DNA of 64,000 nt from Algiphilus aromaticivorans DG1253 (GTDB lineage Bacteria; Pseudomonadota; Gammaproteobacteria; Nevskiales; Nevskiaceae). Shown piece by piece: positions 13,961 to 36,447 of the stretch. The position numbers and the translations under genes were made by a program. The stretch lies in NCBI RefSeq assembly GCF_000733765.1, contig NZ_JPOG01000001.1, forward strand, positions 62,001-126,000, in the 5' to 3' direction. Position 1 is the stretch's first letter; each line of letters opens with the position of its first letter. The notes under the pieces were generated by a model. The model worked only from the letters and a program-made list of their open reading frames with translations. It did no database searches and was not told the origin of the DNA.

Positions 13961-13991
13961 TCTGGTTCAGCGACCGAGCCGGCAGCTTGGG

Positions 13992-14259
13992 CGCTGAAAG
14001 CGGATCTGGTGGGTCTGCCAGGATTCGATGAATCGGCAGGAAAGCCGATTCACGCGACCGAAGGGAGCCCGGAGGGCTTGGGCCATGGATGGCCCAAGCA
14101 ACCAGGAACCATTCCCCAAGCCAGCGATTTCGTCGCTGAAAGCGGATGTGGTGGGCCTGCCAGGATTCGATGAATCGGCAGGAAAGCCGATTCACGCGAC
14201 CGGAGGGAGCCCGAAGGGCTTGGGCCATGGATGGCCCAAGCAACCAGGAACCACTCCCC
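13992..14259. repeat. Two tandem tRNA-3'-end-derived repeats with hairpin insert
   Basis: Two about 126-bp units start at 13992 and 14134 (period 142). Each begins with CGCTGAAAGCGGAT and the last part of the CAU tRNA gene found at 36372 (read as its complement), up to the T-loop (GGATTCGA). A 72-bp insert follows, after which the tRNA sequence resumes for 11 bp (ACCAGGAACCA). In copy 2 the insert is 14171-14242. It holds perfect 9-bp hairpins TGAATCGGC/GCCGATTCA (14171-14194) and CTTGGGCCA/TGGCCCAAG (14219-14240). From GTCGCTGAAAGC onward, 39 bp of copy 2 are identical to the tRNA flank at 36355. Confidence 0.85.
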
Positions 14260-14268
14260 CGAGCGAGC

Positions 14269-14273
14269 GACTT
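14269..14273. repeat. Target site duplication, left copy (GACTT)
   Basis: GACTT directly abuts the left TGT terminus of the Tn7-like element and is repeated at 36349-36353 beyond the right ACA terminus. A 5-bp duplication is the hallmark of Tn7-like transposition. Confidence 0.88.
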
Positions 14274-15035: not shown

Positions 15036-15068
15036 GGTACCACAACATTGTTCAAGTGGAGTCGTATC

Positions 15069-15965
15069 ATGAGCAAATCCTGTGGTGGCGCCTGTGGCGG
15101 TGATGCAACGTCCGCAGCGGATACCGATATACAGGCCTCCTCCGAGGCGCCAGGGAGATGGGTCAGTGTTTATGCCGTGCCGAAGATGGACTGTCCATCA
15201 GAAGAACGAATGATTCGCCTAGCCCTGAACGGCTTTGAGGAGATTCGGGCGCTGTCCTTCGACTTGTCGAACCGCCGGCTGAAGGTCGTGCATGACGGCG
15301 AGGTCGAGCCCGTCACCTCGAAACTGAAGACCTTGGGGCTAGGCGCCTCGCTTCAGGAAACCGTCGCTGCAAATCCGGAGACCATCAAGGCCGCCGAGTT
15401 TTCGGCAGCTTCTGCTAAGCAAGAATCCGGGACCCTGCGCTGGTTGCTCGGCATCAATGCACTTCTGTTCGTGGTGGAAATGACTGCCGGTCTGATCGCC
15501 CGGTCCGCCGGCCTGATTGGAGAATCCCTGGACAATTTTGCCGATGCGGCGGTGTACGGGCTTGCCCTTTATGCGGTTGGACATAGCGTGAAAATGCAGG
15601 TACGTGCCGCGCATCTTGCTGGTGTACTGCAACTGATCTTGGCTGTGGGCGTGCTCGTAGAGGTGGTGAGACGCTTTGTATTCGGTAGTGAGCCTGAATC
15701 GCTGGTGATGATGGCTATCGCATTCGTCGCATTGATTGCCAATACCAGTTGTCTGCTGCTCATATCCAAACATCGGGAAGGCGGGGCGCACATGAAGGCA
15801 AGCTGGATATTCTCGGCCAACGACGTGGTGATCAACCTGGGGGTCATCACCGCCGGCGCCCTGGTCGCGTGGACCGGTTCCAATTATCCGGATCTGATTA
15901 TCGGCACCATCGCGGGGGGCATTGTACTTAACGGTGCCAGACGCATTTTGGCGTTGAAGGGTTAA
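15069..15965 (+). CDS. CDF-like heavy-metal cation transporter with N-terminal HMA-like domain
   Basis: This protein of about 298 residues starts with a cysteine-rich segment (SCGGACGGD) and an HMA-like fold (VYAVPKMDCPSEERMIRLAL). About six membrane segments of CDF/CzcD type follow: LGINALLFVVEMTAGLIA, GESLDNFADAAVYGLALYAV, SLVMMAIAFVALIANTSCLL and SANDVVINLGVITAGALVAW. It should export Cd, Zn or Pb from the cytoplasm by proton antiport. GGAG lies 7 nt before the ATG at 15069. It is under the CadR promoter and is followed 3 bp later by lspA. Confidence 0.88.
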   Translation: MSKSCGGACGGDATSAADTDIQASSEAPGRWVSVYAVPKMDCPSEERMIRLALNGFEEIRALSFDLSNRRLKVVHDGEVEPVTSKLKTLGLGASLQETVAANPETIKAAEFSAASAKQESGTLRWLLGINALLFVVEMTAGLIARSAGLIGESLDNFADAAVYGLALYAVGHSVKMQVRAAHLAGVLQLILAVGVLVEVVRRFVFGSEPESLVMMAIAFVALIANTSCLLLISKHREGGAHMKASWIFSANDVVINLGVITAGALVAWTGSNYPDLIIGTIAGGIVLNGARRILALKG

Positions 15966-18730: not shown

Positions 18731-19747
18731 TCACGGATGCACCTCCAGCAGATCCTGGTAGACCGACAGCGGATGCTGGAAGCTGTCGATGGGTACGGGC
18801 CTAGCTGCGGCCGGTACCCGGGCCGGCGCCTCGTCGCGGGCCGCCGGCAGCGCCTGCAGCACATGGCGTTCCTCGTCGAGCCGCACCGCCGGCTTGACGC
18901 CGGTGGTGCCGTGCACGCGCTGGTCGGCGACCTCAATCAGCCAGCGTCCGACGTGGGCGTTGGCGACCGCAACATCGAGCTGCAGCCCCGCTGTCTTGAG
19001 GCTGGCGGCCAGCGGCGTGACGAAGGATTCCTTGAGATAGCGATTGAAACGCTCGACCTTGCCCTTGGTCTTGGCCCGATAGGGTCGACACAGCTTCGGC
19101 AGGAAGCCGTAGGCCTCGGCCAGCGCCAGCAGATCCGGATGCCAGCGGTGCAGGCCGTCGCCGTAGGCGTCGCGCTCGATGACCACCGATTTGGCGTTGT
19201 CGAACAGCACTTGCTTCGGCACGCCGCCGAAATGCACGAAAGCGGCCTTGAGGCCATCCATCCAGCTGGCGGCATCCTCGCGGTCGCAGAAGCGCACGGC
19301 ACTGGACCGGGAATAGCCCAGTGTGCCGACGAAGGCCAGCAGTCGATGCCGGCCCCGCCGGATCGTGGTGAAGTCGACCTGCATCTGCTCGCCGGGGGCG
19401 GTCTCGAAGCGCACCAGCGGCTCGACTTCCTGCCGCTTGAGCGGTGCCAACAAGGCCTTCAGCTGGCTGATGCCGCCGTCATAGCCTTGCTCCCGGATCT
19501 CGCGCAGCAGCACCGTCGCGGGGATCCAGTGCGGCCGTGCGGCTTCCACCCGCGCCATCAGATAGGCCTTGTACGGATCCAACTTCTGCGGGCGCGCCGC
19601 ACGATCGGCGTAGCGCGTCGCCTCCGGGTCCCGCAGGTAGCGCCGCACCGTGTTGCGCGAGCATCCCAACTGCCGCGCGATCTCTCGAACACCCACATCC
19701 TGCCGGGATAGGACTCTGATCTCCACTGCTTGCTCCAAGCTCAACAT
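18731..19747 (-). CDS. istA: IS21 family transposase IstA
   Basis: This protein of about 338 residues has an N-terminal HTH (LSRQDVGVREIARQLGCSRN) and an rve DDE core: FETAPGEQMQVDFTTIRRGR (Asp), FGGVPKQVLFDNAKSVV (Asp) and PYRAKTKGKVERFNRYLKES (Glu). The ATG at 19747 begins the usual IS21 start (MLSLEQAVEIRVL). An ATG seven codons earlier is possible. Its TGA overlaps the istB GTG. IstA looks intact, but its helper IstB is broken. Confidence 0.88.
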   Translation of the reverse strand: MLSLEQAVEIRVLSRQDVGVREIARQLGCSRNTVRRYLRDPEATRYADRAARPQKLDPYKAYLMARVEAARPHWIPATVLLREIREQGYDGGISQLKALLAPLKRQEVEPLVRFETAPGEQMQVDFTTIRRGRHRLLAFVGTLGYSRSSAVRFCDREDAASWMDGLKAAFVHFGGVPKQVLFDNAKSVVIERDAYGDGLHRWHPDLLALAEAYGFLPKLCRPYRAKTKGKVERFNRYLKESFVTPLAASLKTAGLQLDVAVANAHVGRWLIEVADQRVHGTTGVKPAVRLDEERHVLQALPAARDEAPARVPAAARPVPIDSFQHPLSVYQDLLEVHP

Positions 19748-19948
19748 GGGCGGCCAAAAGGCCGCCATCCTCGCCCAGGTGGGTCAGATTTACTTCGGCG
19801 CGGTGGGTCAGTTTTACATCGGCGCTAACAAATACAAGGCCACCCCGAGCAACAGTCACCAACACGACGCCTAATTCCAGGAATCAATGCTTCGATAAAG
19901 GCAGGCGGGTCAGATCTTGCTGAAAATATAGAGCCAGCAAAAGAACGT

Positions 19949-20419: not shown

Positions 20420-21742
20420 TCAGTTTTTCTTCCCGCGAACCCCTTCCATCACACGCCCGAACTCATTCTTGGCTCGGTGCTCAGTACAAGATACTTGCTC
20501 CCGAAGCTGGCCAACGAAGCGCTTGCGGGTCAACGGCTCGCGCCTACGTATCAGCGCGGCGATCGCGGCGATTGCCGCCTCGCGCAGCTCCTCTTCACTT
20601 TTCTTGAGGCGAGCCTCACGGCTCGCTTTGATGCGTGCCGCATACTCCCGTGCCTCCTGTTTAGCGATAGAGTATAGAGTCGACGGGTCAACTCCGATTT
20701 CCCTCGCAAATGCATTGACTGATTGATGCTTCGGCTCTTCTTGCTCGAGTTCAGCGAGTAAAGCCGCCCGGACGGCGTCTTTGTCGTGCCGGATTATCGG
20801 CGGCTTGCGACTCGGCACAAATATGCTCGGCGCCGCAAGTTCGAAGGGCATCTGACGAGCAGCTTCTATTGGATCTCGGAGAGGGCTGCATGGTGAGATA
20901 TCAATCTGTGCGCATACCCGAAGCCAGGTTTCGAGCTTGGGCTTTGAGCGGCCTCTAATCCAGTTGGCTAGCGTTTGCGACGGTACCCGAATCTTCTTAG
21001 CAAAAGCTTCGACGCTTAGACGGCGAGCACCAGCCACGGATCGCAAAAATAGCCCGCACTCCCGCCCTGTAAGGAAAGGGCGGAGGTCGCTGCGAGCCTG
21101 TAACAATTCGGGAAGGTGCTTGATCAGCCATTCCTGATATCCCTTGTCTTCAGGGGTGCTGTCCTGAAGTGACTTGTGGCTGTTGGGATGCCAAAGAAGT
21201 GCGCCACAGGATTGACAGGCGTCCAGGCATCCTCGGCGGGTGAGGAACGGTTGGGTCTCTCGGCACTCAGTGCAATGAGCATGTAGCTCGACTCTGTGCG
21301 TGGGACAGAACCTCAGTTCTGGCATCTGCCATATCAGCAGATCGACCGGATCCTCCTCAGACTTGGTCCTCTCCTCATAGCAAAGCGCACACCAGTGCTT
21401 CTCCGCCTTCAAAGCGCCAGTGCCTTGGTTCGCAAACACCGCGCTGAAGTCGCACAGCGTGGTCTCTTCAAAGCCCGCGTGGCCCAGCGCTCGAGCCAGT
21501 GCGGTCCGAATTTCCGCCTGGGTCTCCGTATAGTGGTTCAGGGTGCGTCCACCGCTGCCACGTAGTAGGTCTTTGGTTTTTGCGAAGCTGTGCCCTGTTA
21601 GGCCGCCAAGTAGGGTTAGTAGTGACTGTGTCGGGATCCGGTGGGCCCTCGCGAGTCGCCCAAGGTAGGAAGACAGGCACTCGACGTAGGGTGTGCCCGT
21701 GCCGTTGACGGGGAGTTGGAAGAACTCGATGCCTCCGTTCAC
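20420..21742 (-). CDS. tniQ: TniQ/TnsD-family transposon targeting protein
   Basis: This 440-residue protein has an N-terminal TniQ domain (LSSYLGRLARAHRIPTQSLL, LRGSGGRTLNHYT) and zinc-knuckle pairs typical of TnsD/TniQ (HWCALCYEE, RFCPTHRVELHAHCTECRE, CLDACQSCGALLWH). A C-terminal portion holds two HTH-like segments (VEAFAKKIRVPSQTLANWIR; VNAFAREIGVDPSTLYSIAK). TnsD-type proteins bind a fixed chromosomal site and recruit TnsC. The tRNA flank at 36354-36371 is the inferred target. It starts at a GTG overlapping the tnsC stop by 4 bp. Confidence 0.9.
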   Translation of the reverse strand: MNGGIEFFQLPVNGTGTPYVECLSSYLGRLARAHRIPTQSLLTLLGGLTGHSFAKTKDLLRGSGGRTLNHYTETQAEIRTALARALGHAGFEETTLCDFSAVFANQGTGALKAEKHWCALCYEERTKSEEDPVDLLIWQMPELRFCPTHRVELHAHCTECRETQPFLTRRGCLDACQSCGALLWHPNSHKSLQDSTPEDKGYQEWLIKHLPELLQARSDLRPFLTGRECGLFLRSVAGARRLSVEAFAKKIRVPSQTLANWIRGRSKPKLETWLRVCAQIDISPCSPLRDPIEAARQMPFELAAPSIFVPSRKPPIIRHDKDAVRAALLAELEQEEPKHQSVNAFAREIGVDPSTLYSIAKQEAREYAARIKASREARLKKSEEELREAAIAAIAALIRRREPLTRKRFVGQLREQVSCTEHRAKNEFGRVMEGVRGKKN

Positions 21743-22812
21743 TGCTCATCCCCGCGCCCTACCTGGTCTCGAGAAGGGTTCCGTTCGCCCACTCGGCGCT
21801 TGGACCGGTGTGGGGTTGAAGAGCGCAGTGAAGGTGTCTCGCCTGCTACCTCCTCCGAGAAGAAGCACGCGCCGTCCTCGATCTCGAGCGCGAGATTCTT
21901 TTGCTCCCTTTTCGTAGGCAGGCTGTCACGGATGTGGTCCCAACTCAGTTGCGCGGCATCGCTCTGAGAAGAGGTGGCAATCGCACGCAGCAAGGTGCGC
22001 TGTAGCCAGCCGATGCATCCGAAGGTTGCCTCAAATAGCGCGTCGGCTCGATCAACTAGCAGGTTGCTCGGGCAGTAACCCCCCATGAGCTCTTGGTACG
22101 TGGCGCAGCACGAGAGCCAGGCCTTGACGTCGCTCTCAATGGTTGGTGACAGGGGCCGAAGATGCACGAATTTCGTCGGAAAGTCAGAGGCCGCGCAGAT
22201 ATTAGAAATGCGCAGGAGCTCATAGGATCCAGTTGCTACCACTACAGCGGGTAGCCCGAACCGGCTGTTCGCGAGCTGATGCAAGGTAATTGGAACCGCA
22301 TCCAGGTCGGACGCCTTCGCGCGCCGGAGCATATGGTGGGCTTCCGAAATCAGAAGTGTTGTACAGCCGCGGCGATGAGCAGCATTGGCCATCTGCGTCT
22401 GGTGCTGGTCGCGTGTGGTCCAGGTCGCTGACTTAGAGAATTCTGTGATTCCGTGCTCAGACTCGGAAGCTCGCCGACGTTGCCCAAGAATTGGGTCATT
22501 CAGCGCTTCAAGGCCCGATTCAAAGAAGTTCTTCCACCTGAAAGGGGTATCCGTGGGGAAGCGGGCGCGGAGCTCTAAGGCCGCGTAGTGATTCTCAGGT
22601 TGTGTTCTGGCTACGAGTTCACTTGTCAGCCGCCGAGTAAGCGTGGCGACCCCGGAGCCAGTCGGGCCTACGCATACGAGGACAGTTCCTCGCGGAGCGA
22701 ATTGGATATTGGCCAATAGGTCGTTCAGGGTGTCCGTGAAAAGTGGCGTTTCAATGGACTGCGTTTTGATCGCCCGAGTAGCCCGGTCCCGCAGATAATC
22801 CCGCTCCATCAT
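21739..22812 (-). CDS. TnsC/TniB-like AAA+ protein with substituted Walker A and Walker B residues
   Basis: This 357-residue protein has the layout of TnsC/TniB. The P-loop region reads VGPTGSGVATL (residues 48-58), with Val55 where the Walker A lysine belongs and Ala56 in place of Ser/Thr. The Walker B region reads TTLLISEAHHML, with Ser156 in place of Asp. A sensor-like VVVATGSYELLRISN follows. The flanking motif FRWKNFFESGLEALNDP is as in active TniB proteins. It is coupled to tnsAB and tniQ by 4-bp overlaps. It should link transposase and TniQ, probably without normal ATP hydrolysis. Confidence 0.85.
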   Translation of the reverse strand: MMERDYLRDRATRAIKTQSIETPLFTDTLNDLLANIQFAPRGTVLVCVGPTGSGVATLTRRLTSELVARTQPENHYAALELRARFPTDTPFRWKNFFESGLEALNDPILGQRRRASESEHGITEFSKSATWTTRDQHQTQMANAAHRRGCTTLLISEAHHMLRRAKASDLDAVPITLHQLANSRFGLPAVVVATGSYELLRISNICAASDFPTKFVHLRPLSPTIESDVKAWLSCCATYQELMGGYCPSNLLVDRADALFEATFGCIGWLQRTLLRAIATSSQSDAAQLSWDHIRDSLPTKREQKNLALEIEDGACFFSEEVAGETPSLRSSTPHRSKRRVGERNPSRDQVGRGDEQ

Positions 22813-36348: not shown

Positions 36349-36353
36349 GACTT
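36349..36353. repeat. Target site duplication, right copy (GACTT)
   Basis: GACTT follows the terminal ACA of the Tn7-like element and matches 14269-14273. Confidence 0.88.
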
Positions 36354-36371: not shown

Positions 36372-36447
36372 TGGTGGGCCTGCCAGGATTCGAACCAGGA
36401 ACCAAAGGATTATGAGTCCTCTGCTCTAACCGTTGAGCTACAGGCCC
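36372..36447 (-). tRNA. tRNA with CAU anticodon (probably tRNA-Ile2, possibly elongator Met)
   Basis: The 76-nt cloverleaf includes the encoded CCA. The acceptor stem is GGGCCTG/CAGGCCC, the D stem is GCTC/GAGC, and the anticodon loop is CTCATAA (CAU) on a GAGGA/TCCTT stem. The T arm is CCTGG-TTCGAAT-CCTGG, with one T-T mismatch in the middle of the stem. The sequence style (AGAGGACTCATAATCCTTTGG) is that of the lysidine-modified Ile2 tRNA of gammaproteobacteria, but Met cannot be excluded by eye. The 3' end faces the Tn7-like element, 18 bp away. Confidence 0.9.

Follow-up and report, generated by a model that had tools for sequence, protein, structure and literature searches.

A tandem array of T-loop-split tRNA tails in Algiphilus aromaticivorans and its likeness to the tyrT repeats of Escherichia coli

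Behind a CAU tRNA gene of Algiphilus aromaticivorans DG1253 lies a tandem array of units, each a copy of the 3' part of that tRNA, split inside the T-loop by a structured module. The array stands in a stretch of 64,000 nucleotides (the window), and its reality is confirmed here. What we observe directly, in the window and elsewhere, is the anatomy of the split, the match of the units to their own tRNA, the tandem spacing, presence or absence in a sister species, the tracking of the tRNA and the conserved pairing. We consider it fairly probable that this is a satellite array of the tyrT/rtT type that grew in tandem and owes its lasting likeness to the tRNA to recombination. The tyrT/rtT repeats are already known, and by sequence the window units appear to be a variant outside the RtT family.

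Results

The array in the window

On the minus strand the order is a CAU tRNA gene, a transposon of 22 kb and two units of 142 bp. The intact tRNA gene (36372-36447, minus strand) is assigned to tRNA-Met (CAT) by ARAGORN and scores 71.8 bits with the Rfam tRNA model; from its CTCATAA loop we take it to be probably of the tRNA-Ile2 type. The inner unit (14116-14257) and the outer unit (13974-14115), both on the minus strand, are direct repeats with 92% identity, and in both the tRNA halves are parted in the T-loop, just as the original prediction of tandem tRNA 3'-end copies at 142-bp spacing had it.

The plan of a unit is GGTTCCTGGTT, a 71-nt module of two hairpins, and then TCGAATCC...CCACCA, which is the 3' part of the neighbouring tRNA. 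In the inner unit the T-arm 5' half GGTTCCTGGTT is at 14242-14252, the module, with hairpin H1, linker and hairpin H2 identified by sequence and folding, at 14171-14241, and the T-loop/T-stem/acceptor 3' half TCGAATCCTGGCAGGCCCACCA at 14149-14170, all on the minus strand. The corresponding parts of the outer unit, also on the minus strand, are at 14100-14110 (GGTTCCTGGTT), 14029-14099 (module) and 14007-14028, the last with one substitution compared with TCGAATCCTGGCAGGCCCACCA. The same T-arm halves are unbroken in the CAU tRNA at 36372-36447. A hairpin block of 72 bp had been described earlier; this length holds if the neighbouring T is counted, but the insert proper, with its two strong hairpins, is 71 nt. 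Likewise, the 11 bp said to resume the tRNA correspond to the T-arm 5' half, reached after the block when the plus strand is read; on the other side there is a tail of 22 nt, to which the inner unit adds 17 nt of the tRNA's own downstream sequence.

The transposon (14274-36348) is bordered by 5-bp direct repeats GACTT at 14269-14273 and 36349-36353 and has the inverted ends TGTGCAGTAAACGATAA, all read by eye. Within it are a cation-efflux gene (15048-15965), an rve-type transposase gene (18731-19768), TniQ (20420-21742) and an AAA ATPase (21739-22812). When the insertion is bridged by eye, the left halves of the CAU tRNA and the inner unit are about 70 nt apart, that is, 142 minus the insert. 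Since this is the 142-bp period without the insert, the tRNA counts as the third unit of the array, in agreement with the pre-transposon arrangement that had been proposed. The transposon landed between the CAU tRNA and its array.

When the window units were compared with other Rfam families, there were only weak matches below threshold to sX7, Termite-flg, RsmW, isrO and Vax2os1_2, which we take as chance.

Units behind other tRNA genes of the genome

The tRNA genes of the genome were catalogued with Rfam (44 matches) and ARAGORN (43 genes with downstream DNA), and this was combined with a nucleotide search and reading of the sequences. Like units are present behind tRNA-Asn-GTT, Pro-CGG, Lys-CTT, Arg-CCG, Glu-CTC, Ser-GGA, Ser-GCT and Ser-CGA, those of Ser-GCT and Ser-CGA being degenerate, and each unit echoes the halves of its own neighbouring tRNA. 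Further, Val-GAC has a remnant unit, and Thr-GGT a T-arm palindrome without interruption. By an exact-tail criterion 5 of the 43 tRNA genes have such a unit, by a wider reading about ten. The search for other tRNA genes with such units, suggested along with the original prediction, is thus positive; the hairpin block does not occur only in the window, and its flanks in this genome do resemble tRNA.

The units fall into two orientations. Asn, Pro, Lys, Arg and CAU units are split at 55/56, while in Ser-GGA, Ser-GCT and Glu the module has the opposite orientation and the split is at 57/58. In general the split is at 55/56 with the module direct and at 57/58 with the module inverted, and the two are a single cut, seen from either strand of the near-palindrome TTCGAA.

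An inverted copy of the T-arm is clear in the Asn, Arg, Ser and Glu units, and is not evident by eye in the CAU, Lys and Pro units. Its loop is altered from GATTCGAACC to GATTCTCACC type in Asn and Arg and unaltered in Ser and Glu. An altered loop of this kind (TTCGAACC-like to TTCTCACC, on the other strand TGAGAACC) recurs at different tRNAs in different families, namely in the Asn and Arg units of this genome, at Val of the sister species (G001), in some Ser arrays (L126, L168) and at E. coli tyrT.

At Lys and Asn, a T-loop can also hold modules head to tail, with a single T between them. The Lys-CTT units and a remnant unit flank a DUF4258 gene and a small gene with no Pfam match (L304 693-1462, C1:716992-717761); the two might resemble a toxin-antitoxin pair, and perhaps captured cargo. 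The genome also has a second dispersed intergenic repeat (L064-L069), CACTAAGCTCGGTCTTCC...GACCTCGTTAAGTGACC...GGGCCATCCATGGCCC...GGCAAGTCGGTCG, which has a hairpin with an ATCCAT loop in common with the module and has no tRNA nearby.

The match to the own tRNA

The match of the echoes to the neighbouring tRNA is not a matter of chance. With the other tRNA genes masked, a 13-mer of the tRNA's own right half is found 60-450 nt downstream of 67 of 229 tRNA genes, covering 19 isoacceptors, and in 66 of the 67 it lies 98-214 nt from the tRNA. The tail of another isotype is found at 0/229 in each of 20 draws, and the own tail on the opposite strand at 2/229. Without masking the numbers are 68 for the own tail, 0-3 for draws of other isotypes and 2 for the opposite strand. 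Among 280 tRNA genes, a split echo is present at 88 and an uninterrupted one at a single gene, with 23 isoacceptors involved. The loci behind both 67/229 and 88/280 were fetched largely through matches to the module or to RtT, so these fractions are not genome-wide rates.

The exact-tail test replaced a score based on 10+10 nt, in which the own tRNA came above every control in 23 of 122 cases and which was only partly discriminating, the reasons being the conservation of T-arms and the small number of bases echoed by many inverse units. By a simple script rule, 31 of the 67 loci (32/68 unmasked) have a hairpin resembling a terminator in the stretch that separates the unit from the tRNA.

Lineage tracking and the sister species

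The T-stem of tRNA-Asn is GTAGG/CCTAC in this genome and GTTGG/CCAAC in the sister species (G001), and each array has its own version. To generalize this, we used the 99 of 115 units that belong to isoacceptors with at least two distinct tails. When they are compared with their own tRNA and with that of the same isoacceptor in another lineage, the own tRNA is closer in 125 comparisons, the two are tied in 55 and the other is closer in 22; these comparisons are not independent. The echoes thus tend to follow the tRNA of their own lineage. The alternative label of the original prediction, an array of tRNA-derived pseudogenes, is too weak for units that tend to track the tRNA sequence per lineage.

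Units are common to both species at Asn, and at Pro as far as the contig goes. For the Arg-CCG, Glu-CTC and Ser-GCT units, the sister has nothing comparable at the same tRNA. Lys was left out of this comparison; Lys-CTT of the sister, next to His, is at a contig end.

Fold and pairing of the module

The module consists of hairpin H1 (9-10 bp), a C/G-rich linker and hairpin H2 (9 bp). Folding, proposed earlier as a check, clearly separates it from random sequence: all eight inserts of this genome fold better than every one of 200 shuffles (z -3.6 to -6.0). For the E. coli tyrT insert z is -2.7, with 2 of 200 shuffles equally good.

An alignment of 142 modules (137 distinct) has changes on both sides in 18 of 18 pairs, and 91.3% of its cells are paired, to be compared with 70.2% after shuffling and 27-48% after sliding. 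Since the alignment had been adjusted to the model, and part of H1 is preset in the many rows obtained by pattern scan, the conserved pairing may be read as support, not proof. The set was built from 94 chosen sources, excluding the Enterobacteriaceae loci L124, L137, L139, L150, L157, L162, L171 and L173 and 11 loci of relatives. A tRNA is present within 1.5 kb of 122 of the 142 modules, a rate biased by the selected sources. When the module sequences are clustered, the mean identity is 0.707 between modules of the same genome at different tRNAs and 0.775 between different genera at the same tRNA; this preselected sample does not clearly favour a grouping by genome or one by tRNA.

Relation to the tyrT repeats and the RtT family

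The tyrT repeats are a long-standing unexplained curiosity of E. coli, with early papers from 1978-79. In E. coli K-12 tyrT/tyrV a repeat consists of GAAGGGTGAGAACCTTCGACT, an inverted T-arm with altered loop, AAGGTTCG, the left half, an insert, and AATCCTTCCCCCACCACCA, the right half; what matches the tRNA in these repeats is the right half of a T-loop split. Four units match the Rfam model RtT (RF00391) with 132.9-137.5 bits, and the annotated rttR RNA has its 3' end at the CCA of an echo. For the tandem repeats and rtT RNA, PMC4986893 and PMC2965389 cite Bosl and Kersten 1991.

At E <= 0.001, RtT matches 33 of 185 genomes of Gammaproteobacteria, and the A. aromaticivorans genome is not among them. 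The model has no match in the window at the Rfam gathering score and none at E<=1 in the window locus (L001). For 30 RtT loci from this search, one per genome, a tRNA is present in 29, and 25 repeat its own right half over 15 nt or more (27 by a looser rule that accepts the left half); the echoes are at Gln, Ser and Tyr tRNAs. A draw from the phylum gave matches in 16 of 150 genomes, 12 of them outside Gammaproteobacteria, and of the 18 new loci 15 lie at a tRNA and 11 show an echo. The 12 genomes with RtT-like units outside Gammaproteobacteria belong to another class of the phylum (G263-G369, family f182). In most loci sampled, RtT is thus the neighbouring tRNA's own tail, split at or next to 57/58.

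The window array shares with E. coli the tandem position behind a tRNA, the T-arm 5' half, the structured insert in the T-loop and the ending of each unit in the tRNA 3' part to CCA. However, the window units are split at 55/56 with the module direct, which is the other orientation class; they belong to a CAU tRNA, have no evident inverted T-arm, give no match to the RtT model and are 142 bp long, while the E. coli units are spaced 178 bp by their RtT matches. Neither a T-loop-split account nor tRNA-tail arrays in general appeared in titles or abstracts of the open literature; with subscription papers outside the search, this is weak evidence of absence.

The module away from tRNA genes

A covariance model of the insert (R1, E <= 1e-5) matches 33 of 61 genomes in a search of relatives and 55 of 185 in the class search, the own genome being included in both. 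Another family of the same order has two genomes (L079, L233) in which a CAU tRNA with the window-type tail is followed by a like array, with the T-arm of that lineage.

A pattern scan of the genomes of 84,980 species reported 97 stretches; the 80 loci taken from it contain 97 matches. Of these matches 76 are at most 1 kb from a tRNA gene, 62 of them at Ser tRNAs, mostly in Rhodanobacter and Dyella. The matches that do not adjoin tRNAs are mostly from Enterobacteriaceae, where the module sits within ERIC-like elements. Less selected samples give lower proportions: 40 further places from the search of relatives have a tRNA in 17, an echo of it in 12 and no tRNA in 23, and 27 class-wide loci have a tRNA in 12, an echo in 7 and no tRNA in 15. 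In L336, L342, L344 and L347 some echoes are adjacent tandem tRNA genes, and each also has an echo off the ARAGORN tRNAs. One genome (G038) provides 13 of the 23 places without tRNA, nearly all in one dispersed repeat. This repeat (L239, L241, L245-L247, L249-L251, L253, L254, L259, L264) has the same kind of module after GCGTT, with similar flanks of 60-70 nt on each side. The hairpin module is not confined to tRNAs.

In Enterobacteriaceae the skeleton is RTTC-H1-CTCACCC-...-GTTC-H2-TCG after GATT or GGTT, an internal insert of about 70 nt in elements that we recognise as ERIC from the consensus. The skeleton is that of the window module, whose flanks are tRNA sequence instead of ERIC. ERIC inserts of such size have reportedly been known from Wilson and Sharp in 2006 and De Gregorio in 2005. 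One ERIC-like element with two modules is found between E. coli bsmA and yjfN (L128 3302-3390). It is present with at least 80% query coverage in 2 of 5426 E. coli genomes, and the flanks lack it in 38 of the 40 records listed, a comparison that tests the element, not the module. Passages of PMC3733652 describe REP/CGTC/GTAG palindromic repeats as short hairpin pairs nested in palindromic targets; these and the REP dimers are like our module in plan, but the stem sequence of the module is free to vary while pairing is retained. General background on ERIC, REP and MITE is found in parts of PMC2229807 and PMC3733652.

Discussion

How the arrays may have formed

Under the satellite reading, each unit repeats the 3' part of the tRNA next to it, and a module of 60-90 nt with conserved hairpins splits its T-loop. 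First, a T-arm copy with the module in it would be created at the DNA level immediately behind the tRNA; for this, the tRNA tail has to be copied, module included, to a place 98-214 nt downstream. Tandem amplification would follow through slippage or unequal recombination between the direct repeats derived from the tRNA, and recombination with the tRNA (gene conversion) would keep the echoes tRNA-like. Any read-through transcript could undergo cleavage at the CCA of an echo, as with E. coli rtT. Tandem growth by recombination together with conversion by the tRNA would explain the spacing, the homogeneity and the tracking. The origin of the first unit, the conversion and the cutting are steps that we infer, as are any mobility of the module and any function of the units.

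Some observations go against the satellite reading: the window units do not match the RtT model, 22 of the tracking comparisons point the other way, the terminator-like hairpin in 31/67 loci speaks against routine transcription there, and the module is also found away from tRNAs, in 23/40 and 15/27 places.

Alternative explanations

The original prediction had proposed, as one of two readings, a small structured module, mobile or repeat, that targets the T-loop. A structured module at this position is indeed what we see, but its own mobility and its targeting do not follow. In a rival reading, the module would be a small non-autonomous mobile element of REP/MITE type that enters T-arm-like palindromes specifically at TT^CG, either way round, with the echoes as tolerated landing pads. 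The split echoes at 23 isoacceptors, the skeleton in both ERIC-like elements and another dispersed repeat, the two orientations cut at the same near-palindromic TTCGAA and the head-to-tail modules with a single-T joint would all suit such an element. On the other hand, the module occurs in ERIC-like and other dispersed repeats as well as at T-loops, and with uninterrupted echoes at 1 of 280 tRNA genes versus 88 split ones, empty sites are not seen and insertion into a pre-existing echo would be conjectural. We also found no pair of filled and empty sites for the module alone, and an unsystematic look revealed no transposase link. We regard this explanation as possible but doubtful. Given the near absence of uninterrupted echoes, echo and module seem to have a joint origin, for which neither plain insertion nor plain duplication accounts. 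Ordinary tandem duplication followed by degeneration, with a chance resemblance to the T-loop, can hardly be credited at all: duplication is certainly part of the array, but the own tail is found at 67/229 tRNA genes against 0/229 in 20 draws, and the same cut site recurs in other families.

It is rather unlikely that the units are instead selected RNA genes like rtT, made as one transcript with the tRNA, cut at the CCA of the echo and acting as tRNA-like decoys or regulators. In favour are the 3' end of E. coli rttR at an echo CCA and the compensatory changes in the hairpins; further, PMC4986893 reports Actinobacillus RtT sRNAs on Northern blots. Yet compensatory changes also fit hairpins that are kept as DNA structure, units may be present or absent within one genus, and because a terminator-like hairpin precedes the unit in 31/67 loci a general RNA role is unlikely, even though E. 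coli rtT is an RNA. There is a very small probability that integrative elements recombining in the T-loop of tRNAs left the units behind as remnants of their attachment sites. The T-loop and the 3' half of tRNAs are classic integrase targets, and the genes between the Lys-array units, with the DUF4258 gene, look like cargo; however, the units start 98-214 nt from the tRNA in 66/67 loci, which leaves no room for an integrase, and structured modules of this kind also exist away from tRNAs. No integrase gene was seen between att-like sites, and the 22 kb that intervene in the window are a TniQ transposon with partly annotated genes. Integron attC sites were set aside together with att remnants on the same grounds of distance.

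Implications

Beyond the tyrT/rtT-type satellite array, one may tentatively imagine a wider system of T-loop satellites throughout the proteobacteria, in which a module shared with ERIC spreads together with the 3' half of a host tRNA, spares the tRNA itself and is re-templated in each lineage; we think this broader picture possible but less likely than not. If it is true, there would be a general class, represented here by split echoes at 23 isoacceptors, to which the tyrT repeats belong. Most sampled RtT loci, and a second orientation class outside RtT, can be simply defined as the neighbouring tRNA copied and split at one position of the T-loop, and one common module would connect the ERIC inserts with the tRNA arrays. 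The split-tail definition predicts where to look, and whether the units originate by recombination, transposition or RNA function can be tested by strain comparison.
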